DNA from: Aquimarina sp. TRL1
GTDB lineage: Bacteria > Bacteroidota > Bacteroidia > Flavobacteriales > Flavobacteriaceae
NCBI RefSeq assembly: GCF_013365535.1
Contig: NZ_CP053590.1
Span: forward strand, 4,144,501 to 4,208,500
Length of the DNA: 64,000 bases
Direction of reading: 5' to 3'
Position numbers and translations under genes: made by a program
Notes under the pieces: model-generated
The model's database searches: none
Seen by the model: the letters and a program-made list of their open reading frames with translations, nothing else
Told to the model about the DNA's origin: nothing
Part shown: positions 23,633 to 30,466 of the stretch, piece after piece
Layout of the letters: each line of letters opens with the position of its first letter
How positions within the stretch are numbered: the first letter of the stretch is position 1

Positions 23633-23670
23633 AAAAAAGTTCTTACTACTATTGTAGTAAGAACTTTTTT
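23633..23670. terminator. Perfect bidirectional terminator overlapping the thrC stop
   Basis: A 17-bp perfect stem (23633-23649 with 23654-23670) with loop TATT, flanked by A and T runs. The thrC stop codon falls at the loop, so the last five or six codons of thrC form one arm. Confidence 0.9.
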
Positions 23671-24938
23671 AATTCATCATAACTTTTAATATGAATACTT
23701 TTTTTCTCCTTATTCATCACTTTTCTTATCTGGGTAGGAATCTCTACAGTAGTATTAATAGTTGATTCTACGGTATCCAGGAACTTGACAGGGTGTGCAG
23801 TCTCTAAAAAAATTCCGTATTGATTGTCGGTAAGCGTATGTTCTTTTAGTCCCATATATCCAATGGCTCCATGTGGATCTGCAATATACTTAGTAGTATT
23901 ATAAACTGCTTTCATAGTCGCTTTTGTTTGTTCATCATCAAAGCTATATGCAGAAAAATCATCCTTTAGTTCATGGAAATTGTTATTGAACAATTGTTGT
24001 ATTCTTACAAAATTACTAGGATTGCTTACATCCATGGCATTAGAAATAGTTGCTTTGGATGGTTTTGGATCATATTTTTCGGATTGAAGATACCTAACAA
24101 CTGTATCATTGACATTGGTAGCAGCTATAAAATGTTTTACAGGTAATCCAAGTTTGTTCGCAACAATACCAGCACAAATATTTCCAAAATTACCACTTGG
24201 AACAGAAAAAACGATTTCTTTTCCTTTTTGTTTAACTTGTTTATATGCAAACATAAAATAAAACAATTGAGGAAGCCATCGGGCAACATTAATTGAATTA
24301 GCAGATGTTAGTTGTTTTACAGAGGAGATTTCTTCATCTAAAAAAGCGGTTTTCACCATATCCTGACAATCGTCAAAGACTCCTTCGACTTCTAATGCCG
24401 TAATGTTCTGACCGAGAGTTGTCAATTGTTTTTCTTGAATATCGCTTACTTTTCCAGAAGGATATAAAATAACAACATCCACACCTTTTACACCGAGAAA
24501 CCCATTTGCTACAGCCCCTCCTGTATCTCCTGATGTTGCAACCAGTACAGTAACTTTATTGTTGTTATTTTGGTTAAAATACCCAAGACAACGCGCCATA
24601 AACCGGGCTCCAACGTCTTTAAATGCCATTGTAGGACCATGAAATAACTCAAGGGTTCCTATATTATCTTCAATTTCTACTACCGGAAAATCAAAACTCA
24701 GTACGTCTTTGAGAATATCTCTTAATTCGGTTTCAGGGATTTCATCTCCAATAAACTGCTTAATTGATTGATAGGCAATTTCTACCGTATCTAATGTTTC
24801 AATATTTTCAAAGAACGAAGCAGGTAATGGTTGTATGTTTTCTGGAAAATAAAGCCCTCTGTCCGGGGCTAATCCTTTTACAACAGCTTCAGCAAAACTT
24901 ACAGAAGGTGCATTGTTATTCAGACTATAGTAATTCAT
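23649..24938 (-). CDS. thrC: Threonine synthase
   Basis: 429 residues. PLP enzyme converting O-phosphohomoserine to threonine, final gene of the thrABC operon. Visible features are the PLP-Lys motif TMAFKDVGARFMA, the phosphate-binding TSGDTGGAVA and a C-terminal GAIGYMGL. The start YYSLNNNAPSVSF fits the long-form family. It is separated from thrB by 6 bases, so it is coupled. It is regulated with the operon by the leader upstream of thrA. Confidence 0.97.
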   Translation of the reverse strand: MNYYSLNNNAPSVSFAEAVVKGLAPDRGLYFPENIQPLPASFFENIETLDTVEIAYQSIKQFIGDEIPETELRDILKDVLSFDFPVVEIEDNIGTLELFHGPTMAFKDVGARFMARCLGYFNQNNNNKVTVLVATSGDTGGAVANGFLGVKGVDVVILYPSGKVSDIQEKQLTTLGQNITALEVEGVFDDCQDMVKTAFLDEEISSVKQLTSANSINVARWLPQLFYFMFAYKQVKQKGKEIVFSVPSGNFGNICAGIVANKLGLPVKHFIAATNVNDTVVRYLQSEKYDPKPSKATISNAMDVSNPSNFVRIQQLFNNNFHELKDDFSAYSFDDEQTKATMKAVYNTTKYIADPHGAIGYMGLKEHTLTDNQYGIFLETAHPVKFLDTVESTINTTVEIPTQIRKVMNKEKKSIHIKSYDELKKFLLQ

Positions 24939-24944
24939 GTATTT

Positions 24945-25868
24945 TTAATTAAGTATTCGTATTCCCTGATCGTTAATTTTTGATACATGAATATCAAAAT
25001 CAAGACCTGTTTTAGTATAGATTTTTTCAATTTCTGAGGCTACTTTTTGAGCCGTATCGATCCCTTTGCATAAAGAAAATATAGAAGGACCGGAACCGGA
25101 AATTCCAGCGCCTAATGCGCCATTGGATAGGGCAGCTTCTTTCACAGTTTGGAATTCAGGAATTAGAATAGATCGCAATGGTTCTATGATTACATCTTCT
25201 AAACTTCTTCCTATTAATTCATAGTTTTCGGTAAATAAACCAGTAACTAAACCTCCGACATTACCCCATTGATGAATTGCTTTAGTCAATGGGACAGTAT
25301 GTTTAATAACCGATCTGGAATCGGAGGTTTTTACTTCGATTTGCGGATGAATTACTGTCATAAATAAATCCTGGGGAGTATTCAGCTTTAAGACATCCAA
25401 AGGAGAATAACTTCGTACAAGTGTAAAACCTCCAAGAAGAGCAGGAGCCACATTATCTGCATGTGCATTTCCACTGGCTAATTTTTCTCCTTCCATTGCA
25501 AAAGAAATTAATTCAGTAGGAGAGAAAGGGCTACCCAGTAGTTTATTTACAGCCCATACTGCTCCTGCACTACTAGCTGCACTACTACCAATACCACTTC
25601 CTGCTTTAATCTTTTTGTATATCTCGATGTGAATACCGACATCCTTACCTAATTTTTGCAGGAGGGCCTCTACAGCTACTCCTGCTACATTTTTATGAGT
25701 TTCCATAGGAAGGTCCGCACCTTCAATTTTCGTGATTTTAATACCAGGTTCTGCTACTTTTGAAATAATCATTTCATCACCTACCGTATCGAGGCAGCAT
25801 CCCATGACATCAAAACCACAGGAGAGGTTGGCTACCGTTGCCGGAGCAAAAATTTTTAGAGAATCCAT
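24945..25868 (-). CDS. thrB: Homoserine kinase
   Basis: 307 residues, GHMP kinase. It phosphorylates homoserine using ATP. Motifs are APATVANLSCGFDVMG at the N terminus, the ATP loop GSGIGSSAASSAGAV, and the C-terminal GAGISGSGPSIFSL. The normal family length and the position between thrA and thrC make the call certain. It lies 69 bases after thrA and 6 bases before thrC. Confidence 0.97.
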   Translation of the reverse strand: MDSLKIFAPATVANLSCGFDVMGCCLDTVGDEMIISKVAEPGIKITKIEGADLPMETHKNVAGVAVEALLQKLGKDVGIHIEIYKKIKAGSGIGSSAASSAGAVWAVNKLLGSPFSPTELISFAMEGEKLASGNAHADNVAPALLGGFTLVRSYSPLDVLKLNTPQDLFMTVIHPQIEVKTSDSRSVIKHTVPLTKAIHQWGNVGGLVTGLFTENYELIGRSLEDVIIEPLRSILIPEFQTVKEAALSNGALGAGISGSGPSIFSLCKGIDTAQKVASEIEKIYTKTGLDFDIHVSKINDQGIRILN

Positions 25869-25937: not shown

Positions 25938-28382
25938 TTAATTTTTACCGATTCGGATAATATCTGCAAAAATACCAGAGGCAGTTACATCAGCTCCGGC
26001 TCCGGCTCCTTTGACAATTAATGGTTGTTTTGGATAACGATCTGTATAGAATAAAACGATGTTATCACTTCCTTCCAGATTGTAAAAAGGATGGTCTGCT
26101 GGAATATACTCCAGACCTACTTTTGCTTCTTCTTCAGAATATTGAGCGACATATTTCAATCTGCAGGATTCTTTATTTGCCTTCTCCAGAATGTTTGAAA
26201 AATGTGCCTCATTAGTTTTTAATGAATCAAAGAAGAGGGGGACATTTTCTGTATCCAGACTTTCCTGAGGTAAGAAAGCTTCTTTCTTAATATCTTCCAG
26301 TTCCAAAACACGACCACTTTCTCTGGCAAGGATTAAAATTTTTCTTGCAACATCAACACCACTCAAATCTATTTTAGGATCTGGTTCTGTATATCCTTGT
26401 TCCTGTGCTTCTTTTACTACATCGTGAAAAGAAACTCCTTCTTTATAATTGTTGAATACAAAGTTTAAACTTCCGGATAAAACAGCTTGGATTTTATGAA
26501 CATGATCCCCAGAAGCAATTAAATTATTTAAGGTATCAATAATTGGTAAGCCGGCACCTACATTAGTTTCATATAAGAAAGGGGCATTGAATTTTCTGGA
26601 TAATTCCTGTAATTCTTCGTAATTAACATAATCGTCTGCACAAGCAATTTTATTGCAGGTTACTACAGCCATACTCTCAGCTAAGTATTTTTTGTAAACT
26701 CTGGCAATATTAGGATTTGCAGTATTATCTACAAATATAGAGTTACGCAGGTTCATTTCTTTTGCTTTTTCAAAAAATGCATCAGCATTAGCTTCTTCTC
26801 CCTGAGCCAGTTTTTCTTCCCAATTACTTAATTTAATTCCTGATTCGTCGAAAATCATTGTTCTTGAATTAGAAATAGCAACTACCCGTATTTTTAATCG
26901 AAGTTTATTTTTTAAATACTCTTTTTGCTGGCTTAATTGCTCCATTAGTTTACTACCTACATTTCCTACTCCGGTAATAAACAGATTCAATTGTTTTGTT
27001 TTGACTTCAAAGAATTGTTCATGGAGAATGTTTAGTGCTTTTTTTACATCCTTTTTTTCTATAACTACAGAAATGTTTTTTTCTGATGCTCCTTGAGCAA
27101 TTGCTCTGATATTTACATTGTTTTTGCCAAGTGTGCTAAACATTTTTCCACTTAGTCCCTGATGCTTATACATATTATCACCTACCAGTGCGATAATGGC
27201 GATGTCGTTTTCTATTTTTACAGGAGCTAATTTGTGCTTGGAAATCTCAAATTCAAATACACTATCTAGTGCAGCTTTTGCTTTTGAGGCTTCTGATTTT
27301 TCAATAGCCAGACATATAGAATGCTCAGAAGAGGCTTGCGTAATTAGAATCACATTGATATTTTCTAAAAACAGTGTTTCGAACAATCGCTTAGAAAATC
27401 CGGGAATGCCTACCATGCCACTTCCTTCCAGTGATAAAATAGCGATATCATCGATATGGCTGATTCCTGTTACAGCTTTTTGACTTCCAGCCAATTCACG
27501 CGTGATTAAAGTTCCGTTATTTTCAGGATCAAAAGTGTTTTTTATAACAATTGGAATATCTTTTTCTAAGACAGGATGTATGGTAGGAGGGTAGATTACT
27601 TTTGCACCAAAATGGGATAGTTCCATAGCTTCCTGATATGTGATATGTGCTACAGGTTTTGCTTGTTTTACTAATTTTGGATTAGCAGTGTACATTCCAC
27701 TTACATCTGTCCATATTTGTAATTCTTCTGCATTAATTGCAGCTGCTATTATAGCAGCAGTAAAATCAGACCCACCTCTACCTAGTGTAGAAGGTTCTCC
27801 TTCTTTTGTTCTGGATATAAATCCTGGAAATAAAGTGATTTTATGTTTGTTATTCGTGTGTAATGAATTGATTCTGGCATTGGTTTCTTCATAATCTACC
27901 ATTACTTTTTGCTGATCTCCTGTAATAATAAATGCTCTGGAGTCTTGTAGACTACAATCGATTTCCTTTACTTTCATAGCTTCTGCAATGATATAGGAGG
28001 ACAATAGCTCTCCGAATCCAGCAATAACTGCAGCTGTCTTTGGGGATAACTCTTTTAGTAAAAAGATTCCTTCGCATATGGATTCCAGCTTATTTAATTC
28101 TGATCGAACTTTACTGATTATAGCACTTTGAGAAACAATAGGAATAAGCCCTTTGACTGTTTCCATATGTCTCTCATCAATAGTTTTTAAGGTGTTTTTG
28201 TAGTTATTATCATTGGTAGAAGCTTCATTCCCTGCCTGTAATAACAAGTCTGTAATGCCTCCAAGAGCAGAAACAACAACATATACTTGTTGTTTATTTG
28301 ATTGATCATTAATAATTTCGATGACCTTGTCTATCGTTTTTGCATTTGCTACTGAGGAACCTCCAAATTTTAGAACCTTCAT
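25938..28382 (-). CDS. thrA: Bifunctional aspartokinase I / homoserine dehydrogenase I
   Basis: 814 residues. Aspartokinase (1-about 290: MKVLKFGGSSVANA, GRGGSDFTAA), two ACT domains (about 315-460: SLEGSGMVGIPG, ALVGDNMYKHQGLSGKM) and homoserine dehydrogenase (about 465-814: FITGVGNVGS, VVTCNKIACAD, YETNVGAGLPII, DPKIDLSGVDVARKI). It catalyses the first and third steps from aspartate to homoserine. The ACT region suggests threonine feedback. It is the first structural gene of the operon, with a Thr-rich leader frame and consensus promoter upstream. Confidence 0.97.
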   Translation of the reverse strand: MKVLKFGGSSVANAKTIDKVIEIINDQSNKQQVYVVVSALGGITDLLLQAGNEASTNDNNYKNTLKTIDERHMETVKGLIPIVSQSAIISKVRSELNKLESICEGIFLLKELSPKTAAVIAGFGELLSSYIIAEAMKVKEIDCSLQDSRAFIITGDQQKVMVDYEETNARINSLHTNNKHKITLFPGFISRTKEGEPSTLGRGGSDFTAAIIAAAINAEELQIWTDVSGMYTANPKLVKQAKPVAHITYQEAMELSHFGAKVIYPPTIHPVLEKDIPIVIKNTFDPENNGTLITRELAGSQKAVTGISHIDDIAILSLEGSGMVGIPGFSKRLFETLFLENINVILITQASSEHSICLAIEKSEASKAKAALDSVFEFEISKHKLAPVKIENDIAIIALVGDNMYKHQGLSGKMFSTLGKNNVNIRAIAQGASEKNISVVIEKKDVKKALNILHEQFFEVKTKQLNLFITGVGNVGSKLMEQLSQQKEYLKNKLRLKIRVVAISNSRTMIFDESGIKLSNWEEKLAQGEEANADAFFEKAKEMNLRNSIFVDNTANPNIARVYKKYLAESMAVVTCNKIACADDYVNYEELQELSRKFNAPFLYETNVGAGLPIIDTLNNLIASGDHVHKIQAVLSGSLNFVFNNYKEGVSFHDVVKEAQEQGYTEPDPKIDLSGVDVARKILILARESGRVLELEDIKKEAFLPQESLDTENVPLFFDSLKTNEAHFSNILEKANKESCRLKYVAQYSEEEAKVGLEYIPADHPFYNLEGSDNIVLFYTDRYPKQPLIVKGAGAGADVTASGIFADIIRIGKN

Positions 28383-28425
28383 GATTATGTATGTGTGTTG
28401 GTGTTTATAAAATTATAGTTTGCGT

Positions 28426-28531
28426 TTCGGCATTTCTTTTTAGAATTGCGTACTTCTTCTCCGGTGGTGATATGTATACAATAAACCCCTAAGGGGTAAT
28501 AGTTGTAATAATAGTAGAAGTAGTAATGCCA
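28426..28531 (-). promoter_or_regulatory. Putative attenuator-type RNA region of the thr operon
   Basis: In the transcript the Thr-codon end of the leader can pair with downstream sequence: GGCAUU with AAUGCC and UACUUCU with AGAAGUA, forming a nested long-range structure. An alternative small hairpin, ACCCC-UUA-GGGGU, sits over the leader stop codon and is followed by UUAUU. Mutually exclusive pairings over control codons are what attenuation predicts, but no classical GC-rich terminator with a long U-tract is seen before thrA. Confidence 0.45.
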
Positions 28532-28617
28532 AATGTATGAATAGAGCAGCCCGTAGTTGCTGTGGTAGCAACTTTTGTAGCGATATTAAATTCCGATATG
28601 GAAAGACTGCTTAACAT
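28489..28617 (-). CDS. Thr/Ile-rich leader peptide of the thr operon
   Basis: 42 codons from ATG 28617 to TAG 28489, ending about 106 bases before thrA. Twelve of the 42 residues are Thr and seven are Ile, with the densest run near the end (GITTSTIITTITP). This is the hallmark of E. coli thrL-like attenuators, which sense charged Thr and Ile tRNAs. A consensus -33/-7 promoter lies immediately upstream, with the ATG about 17 bases after the expected transcript start. That promoter falls inside a longer in-frame extension to 28740, so the short start is right. Confidence 0.8.
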   Translation of the reverse strand: MLSSLSISEFNIATKVATTATTGCSIHTFGITTSTIITTITP

Positions 28618-28640
28618 TTGTTTTTTATAATTTCTTGGAT

Positions 28641-28671
28641 CAAAAGTATAATTTTGTTCTTTTGTGGCAAA
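28641..28671 (-). promoter_or_regulatory. Consensus promoter of the thr operon
   Basis: On the minus strand a -33 TTTG (28668-28671), a 19-base spacer and a -7 TACTTTTG (28641-28648) match the Bacteroidota consensus TTTG-N19-TAnnTTTG. It is the best promoter in the window. Confidence 0.85.
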
Positions 28672-28924
28672 ATAAAAAGAATGACTTTCTTTTATTTTTA
28701 TTAATTCGATAAAGAATTGATTGATTTTTTTGTTAATCAATAAAAAAGTCTAAAATTCAACAAGAAGAGACTTCTTTTTCTTACTGAATGTTTTATAAAT
28801 TGAAGAAAAAAAAGCTATTATTGACATAGTAAAAGGGAATAAAAAATAAATAAAGGAATTAAAAACAAGATATCAAGGACTCAATTGATCATATCAGTGA
28901 GTAAAAAATAACATAATAATTAGG

Positions 28925-30466
28925 ATGAAGATATACTCTCCAGAACAAATGAGAAAAGCAGACGAAGCTACGATGCAGACACATCAGATTAGTTCGTCTC
29001 AATTAATGGAACATGCAGCGACACAAATTTTTAATTTGTTACATCAGCGATTACAGGGGGCTCCTATACCTATTCATGTATTTTGCGGGTTAGGAAATAA
29101 TGGAGGAGATGGTTTGGTAATCTCCAGATTGTTACAAGAGCACGGGTATCATGTTAAAACATATATAGTTAATTTTAGTGATAACCGATCTGCATTATTT
29201 TTGGAAAAATACGATCGTCTCAAAAGTGTATCAAAGGAATGGCCTACTCAGTTAAAATGCGAAGAAGATTTTCCTGAAATCAGAAAAGAAGATATGGTCA
29301 TAGATGCCATTTTTGGGATAGGATTGAATAGACCGATTGTTCCCTGGGTAACCTCTTTGATCAAGCATATTAATAACTCCAGATGTTTTACATTATCAGT
29401 AGATGTCCCTTCGGGCTTGTATTCTAATAAAGCACCTGATGATAGAGAAGGAGTGATTTATGCATCGGTAACGGTAACTTTTCAATTACCAAAATTAGTC
29501 TTCTTCCTGCCAGAGACCGGACAGTATACTCAAGAATTAGAGGTGATAGATATAGGTTTGGATAGAAATTTTATTATGAGTACTCCGGGAGTTGCTGAGT
29601 TAATTAGTAAAAATGAAGTGTTAGCATTGTACAGACCTAGACATAAGTTTGCTCATAAAGGATCTTACGGTCATTCTTTATTGATCGGAGGATCTTATGG
29701 AAAAATAGGTAGTGTTCAGTTAGCAACCAAAGCATGTTTACGATCAGGAGCTGGTCTGGTAACTGCATATCTGCCGGAATGCGGATATGATAGTCTGCAA
29801 ACTGCAATTCCGGAAGCAATGGTTATTACCGATGAAGAAGACGATTATCTGACAAAGATTACGTTAGAAAAACACTATAATGCAATTGGTATTGGAGTAG
29901 GAATGGGGACAGCCGAGAAAACAATTGCTGCTTTTGCAGATTTCCTGGGATCAAATAAAAATCCTTTGGTAATTGATGCGGATGCTATAAATATGATAGG
30001 AATTGCTCCTGAACTATTAGAAAATATACCTCCTAAAACGGTTTTTACTCCTCATCCCAAAGAGCTACAACATCTTATAGGAACCTGGAAAGATGACTTT
30101 GAAAAACTAGAAAAGACCAAAGAATTTTCGAGTAAATACGACTGTGTTGTAGTAATAAAAGGAGCGAACACAATTACCGTTTATAAAGAAGATTTGTATG
30201 TTAATACTTCGGGTAATCCAGGAATGGCTACTGCAGGATCAGGAGATGTGTTGACAGGAGTTATTACCGGGATGATTTCTCAAGGATATGATCCGGTTAC
30301 GGCAGCAGTCTTTGGAGTGTACCTTCACGGAAGTGCAGGAGATATTGCATTGCAACAGAGAGGGTACCAAGGATTAATTGCAGGTGATATTATAGAACAT
30401 ATAGGACATTCGTTTATAGAGCTTTTTAAGGCACCTCCTCAACCACAACAACAAGCGCAGACTTAA
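28925..30466 (+). CDS. nnrD: Bifunctional NAD(P)H-hydrate epimerase / ADP-dependent NAD(P)H-hydrate dehydratase
   Basis: 513 residues. It repairs hydrated NAD(P)H. The N-terminal YjeF epimerase domain (1-about 215) has VFCGLGNNGGDGLVISRLL and IDAIFGIGL; the C-terminal ribokinase-like dehydratase domain (about 225-500) has HKFAHKGSYGHSLLIGGS, TPHPKEL and TSGNPGMATAGSGDVLTG with the catalytic Asp. The tail is Pro/Gln-rich. It is monocistronic and divergent from the thr operon. Confidence 0.95.
   Translation: MKIYSPEQMRKADEATMQTHQISSSQLMEHAATQIFNLLHQRLQGAPIPIHVFCGLGNNGGDGLVISRLLQEHGYHVKTYIVNFSDNRSALFLEKYDRLKSVSKEWPTQLKCEEDFPEIRKEDMVIDAIFGIGLNRPIVPWVTSLIKHINNSRCFTLSVDVPSGLYSNKAPDDREGVIYASVTVTFQLPKLVFFLPETGQYTQELEVIDIGLDRNFIMSTPGVAELISKNEVLALYRPRHKFAHKGSYGHSLLIGGSYGKIGSVQLATKACLRSGAGLVTAYLPECGYDSLQTAIPEAMVITDEEDDYLTKITLEKHYNAIGIGVGMGTAEKTIAAFADFLGSNKNPLVIDADAINMIGIAPELLENIPPKTVFTPHPKELQHLIGTWKDDFEKLEKTKEFSSKYDCVVVIKGANTITVYKEDLYVNTSGNPGMATAGSGDVLTGVITGMISQGYDPVTAAVFGVYLHGSAGDIALQQRGYQGLIAGDIIEHIGHSFIELFKAPPQPQQQAQT

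Follow-up and report, generated by a model that had tools for sequence, protein, structure and literature searches.

A predicted threonine/isoleucine-sensing leader with a hairpin at its stop codon upstream of thrABC in Aquimarina sp. TRL1 and related Bacteroidota

The thr operon leader of Escherichia coli, thrL (Rfam Thr_leader), encodes a Thr/Ile-rich peptide before thrA and has its promoter just upstream. A similar arrangement in Aquimarina sp. TRL1 raises the question whether the expression of thrABC is adjusted by a leader ribosome in this organism as well and, if so, by which output. The stretch of DNA that was analyzed, called the window here, comprises 64,000 nucleotides. Within it, the promoter, the leader and the start of thrA are arranged on the minus strand between the thrA ATG (28382) and a divergent NAD(P)HX repair gene (28925) (Table 1). 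The sequence-only reading of this DNA had described a 42-residue frame containing 12 Thr and 7 Ile, a consensus promoter and an ATG about 17 nt further on; these coordinates and counts were confirmed, and the promoter is indeed contained in a longer frame, which starts with TTG at 28740 and encodes 83 aa. The leader ATG (28617-28615) is found 23 nt past the -7 element, corresponding to about 17 nt past the transcription start if the latter is assumed 6 nt downstream of this element, and the leader ORF is separated from thrA by 106 nt. TACWTTTG is kept in the Aquimarina relatives with the exception of six agarilytica-like loci (L030, L032, L035, L036, L037 and L086).

Table 1. Features of the thrABC leader region and operon, with positions counted from the first letter of the window
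Feature	Position	Strand	Sequence or detail	Basis or remark
-33 promoter element	28668..28671	-	TTTG	Sequence; TTTG or TTTT similarly spaced in most Aquimarina relatives
-7 promoter element	28641..28648	-	TACTTTTG	19 nt from TTTG
Leader peptide ORF	28489..28617	-	42 aa, MLSSLSISEFNIATKVATTATTGCSIHTFGITTSTIITTITP; stop TAG 28491-28489	12 Thr, 7 Ile
Predicted hairpin within leader ORF	28556..28572	-	GTTGCTACCACAGCAAC	Folding prediction
Candidate regulatory codon run	28495..28527	-	ATT ACT ACT TCT ACT ATT ATT ACA ACT ATT ACC; adjoins hp2	Position profile over 100 loci
Stop-codon hairpin hp2	28485..28497	-	ACCCC-TTA-GGGGT	5' arm opens with ACC, a Thr codon in frame; TAG within loop and 3' arm
C-rich patch in spacer	28461..28468	-	ACCACCGG; 16 nt past hp2	C maximum +19 to +21 beyond the last run of the hairpin, 100 loci
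Predicted second hairpin hp3	28430..28449	-	GCAATTCTAAAAAGAAATGC; 47 nt before thrA ATG	Folding prediction and positional test
thrA, bifunctional aspartate kinase/homoserine dehydrogenase I	25938..28382	-		NF006959.0, 1059.6 bits (cut-off 726)
thrB, homoserine kinase	24945..25868	-		TIGR00191 and NF002288.1 above cut-off
Putative thrC	23649..24938	-	429-aa ORF, third of the run	Assigned by position

The Thr/Ile content of the leader stands out within the window as well as against randomized sequences. When the short ORFs located 5' of 39 long ORFs in the window were scored for Thr and Ile, the thrA leader had the best value (9.8, runner-up 5.4), and in a close variant of this score it reached 10.5. 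For three more aspartokinase-type genes in the genome (29-36% identity) no such Thr/Ile leader was found. Variant scores of at least 5.5 were obtained for 142 of 215 upstream regions as compared to 1.2% of 1075 dinucleotide shuffles, the highest shuffle score being 7.1.

For the comparison between species, thrA homologues were collected within the same genus, on named contigs (Aquimarina, Allomuricauda/Muricauda/Flagellimonas, Tenacibaculum, Polaribacter and Maribacter among them) and in samples of the family, the order and the phylum. At the cut-off used (E 1e-150) matches were present in 36/56, 45/60, 32/99 and 106/148 genomes, and only matching genomes were taken in; from one sample 73 of 107 match rows were used, from another 30 of 32. 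The genus and named-contig sets overlap (e.g. L030 and L086), unusable loci were left out (L043, L201, L232, L233, L237-L241 and L244), and for some loci (L190, L198 and others) the thrA start was shifted to the nearest ATG. Among the usable loci, a Thr/Ile leader or the hairpin at its stop codon, termed hp2 below, was found upstream of thrA in 31 of 32 genus loci (this genome included), 61 of 64 named contigs, 37 of 43 family loci, 14 of 29 order loci and 19 of 53 phylum loci. Nine loci of the order set (L140-L148), seven of them positive, belong to the same family, so that outside the family the order set amounts to 7/20; two phylum-set loci of the same family, L169 and L170, are both positive. 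By the criteria used, the leader is absent from 6/43 family, 15/29 order and 34/53 phylum loci, of which some may perhaps reflect a misplaced thrA start, and L035 was counted as leaderless although the codon run and the hairpin are visible by eye. Most of the distant phylum loci taken are without a leader. In the order sample, the reduced genomes of about 0.6 Mb (L149-L156) have kept thrA, with no leader by the same criteria.

The sequence-only reading had proposed as a check that the Thr/Ile codons rather than the surrounding sequence should be conserved in relatives, and the outcome was strongly positive. The 150 loci with the hairpin motif were reduced to 140 by removal of duplicates, spacers of more than 130 nt and short upstream stretches, and to 100 by thinning at 85%. 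In these loci, Thr and Ile account for 91% and 90% of the residues at codons -1 and -2 before hp2 and for 61% across the ten preceding codons, as compared to 3-4% in the two other frames, the size of this effect being inflated by the fact that the loci were picked partly on their Thr/Ile frame. All four Thr codons (ACC, ACT, ACA and ACG) are in use, and the in-frame Thr codon at the start of hp2 is ACC or ACG. The leader C-termini are alike in peptides that are otherwise different (...TTTIITLRG, ...TITTTTPLG, ...TTTTTTL, ...ITTITG). The C-terminal codons keep their kind, and the remainder of the leader peptide varies between clades.

The Thr/Ile run adjoins hp2, a small hairpin containing or touching the stop codon, which the sequence-only reading had not mentioned. 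In Aquimarina sp. TRL1, TTATTGTA comes after hp2, the U-tract is poor, and no other terminator-like site was detected in 28300-28930. In the 100 thinned loci, the stop codon is placed at +6 (39 loci), +12 (40), +15 (14) or later (7) relative to the hairpin. Among 85 leaders picked by Thr/Ile content alone, a CCC/GGG inverted pair is present at the stop in 76 (77 with a slightly wider window) as compared to 0 of 326 control windows, a count for which the pattern was picked after the motif had been seen. Arms and loop of hp2 turn over between loci while the hairpin persists, as in CCC-TTCG-GGG (L138), CCCC-GTAA-GGGG (L126), ACGGG-GTAA-CCCGT (L207) and ACGGG-GTGA-CCCGT (L216), with loops of the UUCG and GNRA types. 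The G-rich and C-rich arms are exchanged (ACGGG...CCCGT) in six loci (L087, L088, L094, L206, L207 and L216), an exchange for which no single alternative-pairing model accounts.

Folding energies are less specific. The region 28640-28370 as a whole folds with z = -3.23, and 2 of 200 shuffles fold as well. Over the relatives, the stop window is not set apart by its shuffle z-scores; its mean z was -1.01 (leader window -0.66, downstream window -1.47) and 29% of loci were below z -1.5, an equal share being found in the neighbouring leader window. These z-scores are uninformative, in our opinion because shuffling retains the C and G runs, and the control-window count was therefore used in their place. 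The upstream part of the pattern employed in a genus search (1/12) is specific to this genome, so that the search says nothing on hp2 elsewhere. The hairpin predicted within the leader ORF was found in none of the listed relatives when these were checked by eye.

Is hp2 a part of a classical attenuator? The terminator test applied here required a stem of 5 or more, three G-C pairs and 6 T in 8. Strictly downstream of hp2, no such terminator was detected in any of the 100 thinned loci picked for hp2, this genome included. In the 85 leaders picked by Thr/Ile content, a downstream terminator was present in 0 of 77 with hp2 and in 7 of 8 without it (L090, L165, L200, L209, L215, L217 and L218); the eighth leader lacking hp2, L214, has a long hairpin and no U-tract. 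As hp2 and a downstream terminator are mutually exclusive, hp2 seems to substitute for the terminator and, judged from sequence comparison, to occupy the place where it would be expected in the Aquimarina thr leader. L165, L200, L209, L215, L217 and L218 have Thr/Ile-rich thrA leaders in which a classical terminator replaces hp2, and L200 belongs to the same family as Aquimarina sp. TRL1. L090 probably represents a recA end and no leader: in Draconibacterium (L089-L092 and L097) thrA follows an apparent recA with a Thr run at its C-terminus and then TAA or TAG. A terminator is present in L090, and the resemblance of the Draconibacterium recA end to a leader may be due to chance.

A looser scan that included the leader found terminator-like sites in 15 of the 100 thinned loci, eight of them being hp2 itself and seven lying inside the leader. 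With the same scan, Aquimarina gave terminators at 14/14 hisG, 14/14 PDT/pheA and 5/6 presumed ilvD loci, and the terminators at these loci combine long stems with runs of U. The Aquimarina hisG leaders (L247-L260) contain runs of His codons and the PDT/pheA leaders (L281-L294) runs of Phe/Tyr codons. In the genome of Aquimarina sp. TRL1 itself, the minus-turned locus L295 contains tandem Ile/Val-rich leader peptides, MKTVNTIINVIIIEVIISPQ and MQTVKAIIRIVIIVVVIISP, at 904-967 and 1053-1116, each followed by a U-tract terminator and both located before the presumed ilvD. Textbook attenuators at hisG, pheA and the presumed ilvD thus indicate that the genus uses the attenuation principle.

When taken together, we consider it likely (probability about 0.8) that the region acts in cis as a leader through which the supply of charged Thr-tRNA and Ile-tRNA would control thrABC via the translating ribosome, i.e. 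by ribosome-mediated attenuation. Two features of an attenuator in the broad sense are found here: a short ORF rich in codons for the products of the operon, at the 5' end of its message as placed by the promoter, and hp2 where the codon run ends, a place at which the location of the ribosome could alter the structure. When Thr or Ile is scarce, a ribosome translating the leader would stall on the run and cover the 5' arm of hp2, the hairpin could not form and thrABC would be expressed. With plentiful Thr and Ile, the ribosome would complete the leader and depart, hp2 would form and expression would drop. The direction of control is inferred, as conservation as such gives no direction. Thr/Ile sensing is well supported by the comparison of sequences, and the output appears to be unlike that of E. 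coli thrL. As the readout, premature termination needing more than a U-tract hairpin, either by Rho or with hp2 as a weak terminator or pause site, is in our view most likely, followed by translational control of thrA. Rho, hp2 as terminator and translational control are alternative readouts of ribosome-mediated attenuation.

In Rho-dependent attenuation, Rho would load onto the C-rich, G-poor RNA that extends between the Thr run and thrA. Departure of the ribosome would expose this site, whereas a ribosome residing on the Thr codons would keep it masked or restructured. The composition of the spacer gives a hint of Rho. It contains 17.9% C and 7.7% G, and C exceeds G in 98 of the 100 thinned loci as compared to 62.5% of 32 other 5' flanks in the window; in Aquimarina this is the case for 96% of 28 thr spacers, 0 of 14 his spacers and, with 6 of the 14 phe spacers missed by the motif, none of the other 8. 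The lack of a downstream terminator in all 100 hp2 loci fits Rho as well, and in parts of PMC1262725 Rho is also proposed for mycobacterial Cys leaders devoid of a terminator. However, a formal rut pattern occurs in 23 of the 100 thinned loci and 7 of 28 Aquimarina loci and is absent in this genome (0/28 his/phe and 4/44 other window genes in the comparison sets), and the spacer would lie outside the stretch covered by a ribosome at the Thr codons. We therefore regard Rho as a possible but tentative readout.

Alternatively, hp2 itself could be a short terminator or pause hairpin, whose 5' arm would be blocked directly by the stalled ribosome so that no separate antiterminator would be required. 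Its mutual exclusion with downstream terminators and its position as the sole terminator-like site of the region argue for this readout, as does the sequence after its last run, where T is found at +1 in 92% and at +2 in 65% of the 100 loci. Passages of PMC1262725 also describe actinobacterial ilvB leaders that overlap terminator hairpins. Yet the U-tract of hp2 does not exceed 2 bases in most loci (A at +3 in 54%) and the stem is short, as opposed to the his, phe and ilv terminators of the genus. Termination or pausing at hp2 is accordingly somewhat doubtful as the readout.

Similarly doubtful is translational attenuation, in which the leader ribosome would alter the folding of the RNA and thereby open or close the thrA start, with hp3 acting at a set distance from the start codon. 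hp3 is present in 58 of 100 spacers as compared to 12% of shuffles, its 3' end is located 38-44 nt from the ATG in 47% of the hp3-bearing spacers as compared to 8%, and its median distance to the thrA ATG is 41 nt despite complete sequence turnover. Furthermore, upon removal of arm 1 of hp2, pairing of the freed GGGG arm with the C-rich patch was weakly above that of shuffles (0.298 vs 0.19; values above 0.4 in 29 of 94 loci vs 20% of shuffles). Sequestration of the thrA start by the spacer was rejected, the own pairs being weaker than swapped pairs (+0.58 ± 0.23 kcal/mol) and showing no covariation, which speaks against this readout. A long-range 5' helix ACGGA/UCCGU, visible in the Muricauda group, is by eye lost where the 5' segment changes (L057, L128 and L122) and thus was not taken as general. 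Small pairing excesses of the 5' leader with the spacer (-1.06 ± 0.33) and with the leader end plus hp2 (-1.35 ± 0.37) may both reflect kinship.

A classical attenuator with terminator and antiterminator as in E. coli thrL, to which the sequence-only reading had likened the leader, is unlikely at this locus. It may be realized in part of the relatives, as the leaders lacking hp2 (L165, L200, L209, L215, L217 and L218) carry strong terminators and, in L209, L217 and L218, the leader end looks by eye complementary to the 5' arm of the terminator. At the loci with hp2, the missing downstream terminator disfavours it, and the pairing of the GGGG arm with the C-rich patch, modestly above shuffles as a candidate antiterminator, lacks a terminator to compete with. 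No Rfam family, including Thr_leader and Bacteroid-trp (the latter concerning Trp, not Thr), matched in the window at gathering thresholds or in the leader region even at E 1, and eleven further loci, of which three lie in this genome, gave no match either. The sensing part of the proposed analogy is supported by the comparison and its thrL mechanism is not. Finally, a frame without regulatory role, whether Thr/Ile-rich by chance or composition or coding for a small protein with a function of its own, would fit the N-terminal half of the leader, which is also loosely conserved inside clades. It is very improbable in view of the few shuffles that reach the cut-off and of C-terminal codons that are conserved in kind in peptides otherwise varying from clade to clade.

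Returning to ribosome-mediated attenuation, we tentatively propose the following combined model. Much of the Flavobacteriaceae and part of the other Bacteroidota might use a Thr attenuator devoid of a terminator, in which a ribosome stalled at Thr/Ile codons would melt the stop-codon hairpin and the C-rich spacer would be read by Rho or another factor; the his, phe and ilv operons would keep textbook terminators, and in the thr leader of some relatives a terminator would have taken the place of the hairpin. The locus thus offers a conserved and easily tested amino-acid leader of the Bacteroidota with a clear sensing half and a switching half that departs from the textbook. Comparators are built in, namely the his, phe and ilv attenuators of the same genomes and the terminator-bearing thr leaders of relatives. 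If the readout is by Rho or translation, an amino-acid attenuator can change its output and keep its sensor.

The attenuation principle is already known, and attenuation by leaders in flavobacteria has earlier been suggested in print. According to PMC9723704, the Flavobacterium psychrophilum transcriptome gives strong indications of attenuation by leader peptides in front of amino-acid operons, and the 5' elements of pheA and hisG are named there; the words 'thrA' and 'threonine' are absent from the main text. Leader-like small ORFs in B. thetaiotaomicron appear in parts of PMC7366714, leader genes and reinitiation are discussed in parts of PMC4833913, and a table of Weinberg 2010 (PMC2864571) includes the Bacteroid-trp RNA (RF01692) as a Bacteroidetes cis-regulatory candidate. 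The earlier statement that such leaders are little described in this phylum is therefore only partly right, given PMC9723704 and RF01692. No paper on a thr leader in Bacteroidota was among the matches listed by the search, which covered papers other than subscription ones, nor did we find in the literature searched a description of the hairpin conserved at the stop codon, of the way in which it excludes a terminator, or of the spacer rich in C.

Among the known systems, Bacteroid-trp RF01692 and the Aquimarina thr leader are both cis-regulatory candidates of Bacteroidetes, with no match of RF01692 in the window. F. psychrophilum belongs to the same family, and the same principle is proposed for it in PMC9723704. 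The actinobacterial Cys and ilvB leaders, according to parts of PMC1262725, share with the Aquimarina leader a codon run near the stop and either the lack of a terminator (cys) or an overlap with a hairpin (ilvB), but they belong to another phylum, respond to other amino acids, and comprise leaders without a terminator (cys) as well as with an overlapping terminator hairpin (ilvB). With the his, phe and ilv attenuators of its own genus the thr leader has in common a short 5' ORF with codons for the amino acid of the operon, whereas these have strong U-tract terminators and, in the case of his and phe, spacers in which C does not exceed G. From E. coli thrL, the Aquimarina leader differs by the absence of a downstream terminator and by a codon run that adjoins a hairpin nested on the stop codon, while a Thr/Ile-rich leader peptide ahead of thrA and a promoter close upstream are shared by both.
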